From Gammaproteobacteria bacterium (GTDB taxonomy: Bacteria; Pseudomonadota; Gammaproteobacteria; Steroidobacterales; JABDKV01), in NCBI GenBank assembly GCA_013003425.1, contig JABDJB010000045.1:1-64000 (forward strand): 64,000 nt of DNA, given 5' to 3'. Each line of letters begins with the position of its first letter. Positions within the stretch are counted from its first letter, which is position 1. Under the pieces are notes generated by a model, which had not been told where the DNA came from, made no database searches, and saw only the letters and a program-made list of their open reading frames with translations. Positions 3,789 to 32,990 of the stretch are shown here, one piece after another. The translations under genes were made by a program, and so were the position numbers.

Positions 3789-3816
3789 TTGCCGTTGGCA
3801 GCCGGCCTGTTAGAAT
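3789..3816 (+). promoter_or_regulatory. Sigma-70-type promoter of the tRNA-Ile gene
   Basis: TTGCCG (3789-3794), a 16-nt spacer and TAGAAT (3811-3816) lie 14 nt upstream of the first tRNA base. The spacing and hexamers fit a housekeeping promoter. Confidence 0.6.
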
Positions 3817-3829
3817 CTCGCGCCTGAGT

Positions 3830-4142
3830 GGGCCTGTAGCTCAGTTGGTTAGAGCAGGGGACTCATCGAGAAGGTGCGTTCATGCTGAAAGGCATGAAAT
3901 GAACGGGATGAATTCAGGGGAACCGTACCGATCCGTGTCGGCGGCAACCCTGAGCCAAGCCGGCGGTGCACCGCCGGAAGGTGCAGAGACTACCTGAGAA
4001 CTACAGTGTTCTTAATGACAGGCTAGAGCGTCCCGCACCCTAACGATTTGCGTCGTGGGTGGTGAGATAGTCCACTCCCACCGGAAACAGTGGGGCACAG
4101 TGAATCCCTTGGTCGTAGGTTCGAGTCCTACCGGGCCCACCA
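3830..4142 (+). tRNA. ileX: tRNA-Ile(CAU), interrupted by a group I intron
   Basis: Exon 1 (3830-3866) begins GGGCCTGTAGCTCAG and ends in the anticodon loop at CTCAT; exon 2 (4103-4142) is AATCCCTTGG followed by the T arm GTAGGTTCGAGTCCTAC, the acceptor strand CGGGCCC and an encoded ACCA. Joined, the acceptor stem pairs over 7 bp (one G-T), the anticodon stem is GGGGA/TCCCT and the loop is CTCATAA, so the anticodon is CAT at positions 34-36. Overall similarity to tRNA-Ile2, for example the GACTCATAATC core, supports isoleucine AUA decoding after lysidine modification by TilS rather than methionine. The gene is solitary, lies between the surface lipoprotein and rpoD, and can only function after splicing. 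Confidence 0.93.
3867..4102 (+). ncRNA. ORF-less group I intron (IC3-like) in tRNA-Ile
   Basis: A 236-nt insertion exactly between tRNA positions 36 and 37, preceded by exon U and ending in G, as group I introns require. Core elements can be paired by eye: P4 TCAGGG (3914-3919) with CCCTGA (3948-3953); a P6 hairpin made of the palindrome CCGGCGGT-GC-ACCGCCGG (3960-3977); P7 GACTA (3988-3992) with TAGTC (4068-4072); a P9-type hairpin CCCAC/GTGGG (4078-4082, 4090-4094). The Q segment GGCAACCCTGAGCCAAGC and S segment ATAGTCCA closely match the known Azoarcus tRNA-Ile(CAU) intron, with compensatory change in P4. There is no room for a homing endonuclease. An internal guide GUG (3873-3875) can pair with exon CAU. 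Self-splicing is inferred from structure. Confidence 0.92.
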
Positions 4143-4149
4143 TTGTCAC

Positions 4150-4173
4150 GGGGACAGTACCTGTACTGTCCCC
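4150..4173. repeat. Perfect inverted repeat between the tRNA and rpoD
   Basis: GGGGACAGTAC-CT-GTACTGTCCCC: 11-bp perfect arms, seven bases after the tRNA CCA end and 16 bases past the convergent rpoD stop. There is no T-run, but the strong hairpin could stop or protect both transcripts. The GGGGACAGT-type palindrome resembles dispersed REP-like elements of proteobacteria; that is an inference. Confidence 0.6.
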
Positions 4174-4189: not shown

Positions 4190-6043
4190 TCAGTCTTCGA
4201 GCAGGAAGCTGCGCAGCTGCTCGGAGCGGCTGGGATGACGCAGCTTGCGCAACGCCTTGGCTTCGATCTGGTGAATACGTTCGCGGGTGACGTCGAACTG
4301 CTTGCCGACCTCTTCCAGCGTGTGGTCGGTATTCATATCAATGCCGAAACGCATGCGCAGCACTTTTGCTTCGCGCGGCGTCAGGCCGGCCAGCACGCCG
4401 TGCGTGGTTTCGCGCAGGCCTTCGTTGGTGGCTGAATCAACCGGTGAATCGACGTTGGTGTCCTCGATGAAATCGCCGAGGTGTGAATCCTCGTCGTCAC
4501 CGATTGGCGTTTCCATCGAGATCGGTTCCTTGGCGATCTTCAGCACCTTGCGCACTTTGTCTTCCGGCATTTCCATGCGGATGGCCAGTTCGTCCGGTGT
4601 CGGTTCGCGGCCCATCTCCTGCAGCATTTGCCGGCTGATGCGGTTGAGCTTGTTGATGGTTTCGATCATGTGCACGGGGATACGTATCGTGCGGGCCTGG
4701 TCGGCAATCGACCGGGTGATTGCCTGACGAATCCACCAGGTGGCGTAAGTCGAAAACTTGTAGCCGCGGCGGTACTCAAACTTGTCTACCGCTTTCATCA
4801 GGCCGATGTTGCCTTCCTGAATGAGGTCGAGGAACTGCAGCCCGCGATTGGTGTATTTCTTGGCGATAGAAATCACGAGGCGCAGGTTGGCTTCGACCAT
4901 TTCCTTCTTGGCACGGCGCGCCTTGGCCTCGCCGATGGACATCTGCCGGTTAATCTCCTTCATTTCGGAGATGGACATGTGATTGATCTTCTCCATCAGT
5001 ATCAGCTTGCGCTGGGCGCGGGTAATGTCCGGCCGCAGCTTGGCCAGCGTCGATGAATGCTTGCGCTTGGCGCGTATATGTTTTTCGACCCAGTTCAGGT
5101 CGGTTTCATTCGCCGGGAAGCTGGCAATGAAATCCTTGCGCGGCATACCAGCTTCGCGTACGCAGTACTGCATGATCTGCCGCTCCTGGGCGCGGATCAT
5201 GGCGATGGTCTCGCGCACGCTGCCGACGAGAACCTCGAAAGTTTTTGGCGCCAGCTTCAGCTCCATGATCTGGTCGGCGATGCGTTCCCGTGCCTTATAC
5301 ACCTTGGGATCGCTGGAGCCGGAGGTTTCAATGCCGCTGATCATCCGGTTGTAGGCGCGTTTCATGGTGGCGAACCGACGCTTGGCCTCTTCCGGATCGG
5401 GCCCGTCATCCTTCTTCTTCTCATCGTCATCGGTCGATTTCTTTTCGCCGTTTGCCGTATTGACCGGCTTGGCAATTTCATCGGGTGCATTGGGATCGAT
5501 GAACCCGGTCAGCAGTTCGTTGAGACGCTTGTCACCACGGTGCACTTCGTCCCAGGTTTCGATGAGTATGTCCGGGGTGCGCGGCAGCATGGCCGTGGCG
5601 CGGCGTACCTGGTTGAGCCCCTGCTCGATGCGCTTTGCAATGCGGATTTCGCCCTCGCGAGTGAGCAGCTCTACCGTACCCATTTCGCGCATGTACATAC
5701 GTACCGGGTCGGTGGTGCGGCCAAACTCGCTGTCGACGGTGGCCAGCGCAGCGGCGGCCTCGGCAGCGTCGTCATCGTTGTCGGCCACGGGCGCGTCGGA
5801 CAACAACACGGAATCGTCATCCGGTGCTTTCTCATGCACGGTGATGCCCATGTCGTTAATCATGTTGACGACATCTTCGATCTGTTCCGGATCGACGATT
5901 TCGTTGGGCAGGTGATCGTTCACCTCGGAGTAGGTCAGGTAACCCTGCTCTTTACCGCGCGCGATCAGCAGTTTCAGCTGCGACGCGCGGTCTTCCGCGA
6001 CGCCGGGCTTCAACTGTTCAGGTGCTGCTTTCTTCCCGCTCAA
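4190..6043 (-). CDS. rpoD: RNA polymerase primary sigma factor (sigma-70)
   Basis: About 617 residues, the usual RpoD length. It shows region 1.1 ([26 protein letters not shown]), region 1.2 ([21 protein letters not shown]), the acidic non-conserved insert of gammaproteobacterial RpoD ([16 protein letters not shown]), regions 2.1-2.4 ([20 protein letters not shown] to [17 protein letters not shown]) and region 4.2 ([20 protein letters not shown]). I chose the TTG at 6041-6043 because GAGG lies 8 nt upstream; an in-frame TTG at 6076 has no ribosome-binding site. It is the last gene of the rpsU-yqeY-dnaG-rpoD operon, 60 nt after dnaG, and directs housekeeping transcription. Confidence 0.97.
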
Positions 6044-6103
6044 AACATGTGCCTCAAAAACTGTGCAAACAAACAAACCAGTATATCGGAGACCGTGCCC
6101 CCG

Positions 6104-32892: not shown

Positions 32893-32990
32893 CGGTTCGT
32901 GGCAGCTCCGCTGTCCGGGCAGCGCGGCTGCCGAAGGACCGGTGGCTTTGCGTCCCCGCCTTTCGGCGGGTTTGCCCTGGTCACGCGTGT
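32893..32990 (-). promoter_or_regulatory. Cyclic di-GMP-I (GEMM-I) riboswitch aptamer
   Basis: On the minus strand the hallmark pieces occur in order: CCAGGGCAAACC, the P2 hairpin CCCGCC-GAAA-GGCGGG with GNRA tetraloop, GGGACGCAAAGCCACCGG, then the P3 tetraloop-receptor hairpin GGCAGCCGCGCTGCC (32918-32932). CGTG and CACG at the ends can close P1. These match the GEMM-I consensus closely. It lies in the leader of the unknown gene ending at 32320. Whether it turns the gene on or off cannot be read from sequence; no clean intrinsic terminator follows. Confidence 0.93.

Follow-up and report, generated by a model that had tools for sequence, protein, structure and literature searches.

An ORF-less group I intron of a gammaproteobacterial P7.1/P7.2 clade in the anticodon loop of tRNA-Ile(CAU)

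The window analysed here, a stretch of 64,000 nucleotides from contig JABDJB010000045.1 (GenBank assembly GCA_013003425.1) of a gammaproteobacterium of the Steroidobacterales, contains an interrupted tRNA gene that is convergent with rpoD. The features of this locus are as follows.

3789..3816, + strand: promoter-like site TTGCCG-16-TAGAAT, 5' of the tRNA gene, from a consensus scan
3830..3866, + strand: 5' exon of tRNA-Ile(CAU), positions 1-36, ending in GACTCAT with the anticodon CAU last, from ARAGORN on the joined exons
3867..4102, + strand: group I intron, 236 nt, ORF-less, with a terminal G, from RF00028, covariation and the empty site in G003
4103..4142, + strand: 3' exon of tRNA-Ile(CAU), positions 37-76, from AATCCC to an encoded CCA
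4190..6076, - strand: rpoD, an ORF convergent with the tRNA gene, which anchors the orthologous locus

When the two exons were joined, ARAGORN recognised a tRNA fold with the anticodon CAT, and the best match of the joined sequence in E. coli was a tRNA-Ile with CAU (84%). The CAU anticodon lies in an Ile2-type body and TilS is encoded in the source genome, as expected of a tRNA-Ile2, whose C34 would become lysidine. The elongator tRNA-Met was rejected as host on the basis of this E. coli match and of the separate elongator and initiator Met tRNAs in the genome. In its default mode ARAGORN called no tRNA at 3830-4142, and with introns allowed it slipped by 2 nt and reported a tRNA-Gln(CTG). 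Such a miscall is an annotation trap, and intron-bearing Ile genes are missed or misnamed by tRNA finders in just these two ways. The candidate promoter agrees with the consensus at 9 of 12 positions, against a chance expectation of 0.2 in the region. Directly after the tRNA CCA, between the convergent tRNA and rpoD genes, we also observed a perfect 10-bp inverted repeat lacking a T run (4150-4173; GGGGACAGTA-CCTG-TACTGTCCCC), which could be a terminator or a processing hairpin.

The insertion is a real group I intron. Rfam model RF00028 gave a full-length match at 3854-4094 (+ strand) with 66.5 bits and an E value of 1e-14, the cut-off being 50 bits. The minimum free energy was -96.3 kcal/mol, compared to -77.3 +/- 5.0 kcal/mol for shuffled sequences (z -3.8), and free folding already displayed P2, P3, P4, P5, P6, P6a, P7.1/P7.2 and P8. 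A U.G pair is formed at the 5' splice site in P1 via the internal guide sequence, and the P3-P7 pseudoknot and the P4-P6 domain are present with all of their pairs. The last intron nucleotide (4102) is a G, the conserved terminal base of group I introns; agreement among the relatives on this point was built in, because our retrieval pattern demanded a G before AATC.

The exact insertion point, after anticodon base 36, is revealed by an empty site. In the congener G003, the tRNA-Ile(CAU) gene next to rpoD lacks the intron and does not differ at any of 77 nt from the joined exons in the window, and the rpoD site of a second genome from the same family (G004) is also intron-free. The insertion is thus exact and polymorphic within the genus, where the intron is found in G000 and G002 and is absent from G003. 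The latter genome contains two intron-free copies, which lie at contig ends with an exact overlap of 101 bases and hence are probably one copy. A preliminary description made from the window alone had proposed that an ORF-less group I intron splits tRNA-Ile(CAU) after base 36, to be checked with the Rfam group I model and a tRNA search on the spliced sequence, and this proposal holds throughout: the model score exceeds the threshold, exon 1 ends at 3866, no ORF was found within 3867-4102, and the joined exons form a CAT tRNA with an intron-free counterpart in a congener.

To assign the helices we built an alignment of 67 gammaproteobacterial-type introns together with their exon ends. All helices listed lie on the + strand, and percentages refer to pairing in this alignment.

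3873..3876: internal guide sequence GGUG, forming P1 with 3864-3867 (CAU and the first intron base C), with U.G at the splice site
3880..3897: P2 hairpin with a GAAA loop, 96% pairs, double changes at 7/7 pairs in the 67 sequences
3904..3910: P3 5' strand, pairing with 4029-4035, 99% pairs, nearly invariant
3914-3919/3948-3953: P4, 100% paired, nearly invariant
3923-3925/3942-3944: P5, 80% paired
3928-3931/3938-3941: P5a, 72% paired, covarying
3954-3956/3980-3982: P6, 100% paired
3960-3966/3971-3977: P6a, 100% paired, covariation at 5/7 pairs
3988..3992: P7 5' strand GACUA, pairing with 4068-4072, 100% paired, invariant
3993-3996/4019-4022: P7.1, 100% paired
3997-4001/4008-4012: P7.2, 100% paired, covarying
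4029..4035: P3 3' strand, from the covariation alignment
4036-4040/4057-4061: P8, 100% paired, double changes at 3/5 pairs
4043-4046/4053-4056: P8 inner stem, double changes in the alignment
4068..4072: P7 3' strand UAGUC, from the covariation alignment
4077..4094: P9 hairpin, 91% paired, covarying

P1, P4, P6, P7 and P7.1 were paired in all 67 introns. Double changes occurred well above the level of shuffled columns in P2, P5a, P6a, P7.2, P8 with its inner stem, and P9, while P3, P4 and P7 gave no covariation of their own since these core helices hardly vary. The P4 pairing of TCAGGG with CCCTGA had been predicted correctly in the preliminary description, together with a compensatory change relative to Azoarcus. 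Two pairs are indeed compensatory relative to the Azoarcus P4, presuming for the latter the sequence of the published ribozyme. Inside the gammaproteobacterial clade P4 hardly varies. The guide is matched to the host anticodon: GUG was found in 128/128 Ile introns and GAG, in the identical aligned column, in 4/4 introns from tRNA-Lys(CUU), fitting CAU and CUU, respectively.

Since the host tRNA would read AUA, we searched the source genome for other genes able to do so. No second tRNA-Ile(CAU) and no tRNA-Ile(UAU) was found in this draft of 115 contigs (95.5% complete), which encodes 37 other tRNAs, including elongator and initiator Met. The sole-copy finding in the draft alone is no proof, as its tRNA set is incomplete, with for example no Phe tRNA seen. 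In an evenly drawn class sample of 369 gammaproteobacterial genomes, the Ile(CAU) intron was present in 24 (about 6.5%); 23 of these 24 carriers lacked an intron-free copy, which was found in 241 of the 345 non-carriers (Fisher p 9e-11). The single genome of the sample with both forms is G169. In addition, all 11 carriers of an order-level set were without an intron-free copy. The missing second copy and the pattern among both sets of carriers suggest that AUA decoding probably depends on splicing in the source organism and in most carriers, in line with the preliminary description, which had noted no other copy in the window and proposed the genome search reported here.

A different outcome would be expected if the intron were degenerate and no longer spliced, leaving a dead tRNA gene while another tRNA reads AUA. 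We regard this as very improbable: the draft lacks several tRNA genes and a second copy may be hidden, but all core helices are intact, the exons are identical to the functional gene of the congener, the promoter-like site is kept, neither a tRNA-Ile(UAU) nor a second tRNA-Ile(CAU) was detected in the draft, and AUA is used at about 7 per 1000 codons in the long ORFs of the window.

Our favoured explanation, held with high confidence, is that an ORF-less group I ribozyme of the gammaproteobacterial P7.1/P7.2 clade interrupts the anticodon loop of the one tRNA-Ile(CAU) gene and would be removed by splicing. Starting from the observed sequence, insertion point, helices, empty site and single copy in the draft, we infer that splicing would occur in vivo, would be needed, and would follow group I chemistry. 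The anticodon CAU of the pre-tRNA would pair with the intron guide GUG as P1, a guanosine bound in P7 would attack after U36, and the freed U36 would then attack after the last intron G, joining the anticodon loop. TilS would subsequently modify C34 of the mature tRNA, allowing AUA to be read.

Next, we placed the intron among others inserted at the base-36 site. The phylogenetic tree contained separate Azoarcus-type betaproteobacterial, second betaproteobacterial, planctomycete and gammaproteobacterial clades, with the window intron in the last of these; the backbone and deep branches, and with them the order of the deep lineages, were weakly supported. The best-known intron at this site, in the tRNA-Ile(CAU) of Azoarcus sp. 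BH72, belongs to subgroup IC3, is 205 nt long and self-splicing, and has been visualised in crystal structures. It shares with the window intron the host tRNA, the position after base 36, the core helices, the absence of an ORF and the guide GUG, and within P4-P7 the two show 79% identity across 53 nt, the Azoarcus sequence used here and in the tree being presumably that of the published ribozyme. It nevertheless seems quite unlikely that the window intron is of the Azoarcus IC3 type, whether acquired from a betaproteobacterium or passed down within the Azoarcus-type family. The Azoarcus-type clade (15 rows) is separate, with an SH-aLRT of 99, and excludes the window intron, which moreover ends in GUG rather than ACAAACCGG. 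The segment that separates P7 from the P3 3' strand is 1-4 nt long in Azoarcus-type introns and typically at least 20 nt in the others, and in the window it forms P7.1 and P7.2 (3993-4022). The resemblance to the Azoarcus IC3 intron that had been put forward for this locus thus holds in the core, whereas the two extra hairpins and the tree position do not fit.

Phage introns matched the window intron better and over a greater length. The core with P7.1/P7.2 is nearly superposable on introns, confirmed as RF00028, of the crAss-like phage cr55_1 (78.7% over 89 nt) and of Synechococcus phage S-SRM01 (82% over 62 nt), although these lie near homing endonuclease genes and, as far as seen, outside tRNA genes. 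A domain 7 with the hairpins P7.1 and P7.2 marks class IA2, as in the IStrons (PMC4227781). Unlike IStrons, the window intron has no IS part and no extended domain 9 (P9.0, P9.1, P9.2), a single P9 hairpin preceding the 3' splice site, and because the extended domain is missing we did not file it as IA2.

We next asked how widely such introns are distributed. A scan of public genomes for an intron end joined to an Ile or Lys 3' exon returned at least 119 stretches, and more than 100 loci, a lower bound, parsed as complete intron-bearing CAU tRNAs. Carriers among the matches listed included Lysobacter, Luteimonas, Dyella, Rhodanobacter, Steroidobacter and Woeseiaceae; Polynucleobacter, Variovorax, Leptothrix and Gulbenkiania; and Singulisphaera acidiphila, other planctomycetes and one Opitutia MAG. 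A sample of 398 genomes drawn from the phylum, scanned for introns in tRNAs whose 3' exons are related, added only two more genomes, in which the introns have Azoarcus-like ends. A 2014 review confined bacterial tRNA group I introns to cyanobacteria, alpha- and betaproteobacteria (PMC4033280). The tRNAscan-SE 2.0 paper mentions group I introns in the Ile2 genes of Acidovorax and Burkholderia that tRNA finders likewise miss, the hosts there being betaproteobacteria (PMC8450103), and our literature search, limited in reach, retrieved no report of gammaproteobacterial Ile introns or of group I introns in tRNA-Lys(CUU).

Introns in tRNA-Ile(CAU) are therefore common in Gammaproteobacteria. The earlier view of them as scarce is contradicted by their frequency in the class sample and in public genomes, and an extension of their distribution by the window copy is not supported, since the intron is already widespread in public gammaproteobacterial genomes, including those of cultured strains, though absent from the literature found. 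Rather than an Azoarcus rarity, a predicted self-splicing intron within a tRNA gene that is essential and usually present once is a common gammaproteobacterial state, and the cultured carriers Lysobacter, Dyella and Steroidobacter offer settings in which to test what ribozyme-dependent AUA decoding costs or whether it serves regulation.

rpoD was present within the examined stretch at 83 of 141 intron loci, and for 53 gammaproteobacterial loci the distances between introns correlated with those between RpoD proteins (rho 0.53; reached in 0/2000 permutations). This correlation favours a long residence, in which the intron descended alongside the host and was lost repeatedly, over a recent spread, so that the intron would mostly have diverged together with its hosts; transfers are compatible with the tree, given its weak deep nodes. 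That the intron is instead a mobile element which arrived recently by homing is unlikely in our judgement. Its patchy occurrence within the genus and the relationship of its core to phage introns near homing endonuclease genes would fit such an arrival, but the intron encodes no endonuclease, a search of plasmids recovered no copy and the phages yielded no close one, its divergence tracks that of RpoD, and the copy in the congener G002 is only 85% identical.

In addition to the Ile introns, we found tRNA-Lys(CUU) interrupted after base 36 by a group I intron at four loci, in the congeners G001, G002 and G003 and in G069 from another family. These introns resemble the Ile introns in their position, in an inserted helix between P7 and P3 and in an anticodon-matching guide, and differ in host tRNA, in the guide GAG and in forming a separate tree group. 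We rejected the idea that those of the genus had recently jumped there from tRNA-Ile, as they group on their own, apart from the Ile introns of the congeners. In the source genome the orthologous Lys gene, in a Pro-Arg-His-Lys-Leu cluster, is intact.

Considering all of these introns, we tentatively propose, at somewhat below even chances for the proposal as a whole, that structurally different group I introns have colonised the base-36 site of the AUA tRNA on at least two occasions. One would be an IC3 line of betaproteobacteria, the other a P7.1/P7.2 line that is related to phage introns and occurs in gammaproteobacteria, planctomycetes and other betaproteobacteria. The latter would also have moved into tRNA-Lys(CUU), one base of its guide having changed, and, the intron-bearing gene being the sole one in most carriers, AUA decoding would be obligately ribozyme-dependent in many species.

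Finally, several further introns and partial copies were observed. Within the same order, a group I intron, in part with weak RF00028 matches, follows U34 of an apparent tRNA-Leu(UAA) at five loci, an intron site known from cyanobacteria and plastids, and two same-order genomes have group I introns in an apparent 23S rRNA gene (flank GGATGAACGGTCCTAAGGTAGC). On the minus strand of the window, at 32897-32985, lies a c-di-GMP-I-GGC riboswitch aptamer (RF03167, 70.1 bits). Nine loci are partial copies, in which the 3' part of an intron and the 3' half of tRNA-Ile follow unrelated upstream DNA; in Polynucleobacter they occur in addition to a full copy or at a distance of a few kb from one. They look like islands integrated at the intron-bearing tRNA gene, duplicating part of the intron.
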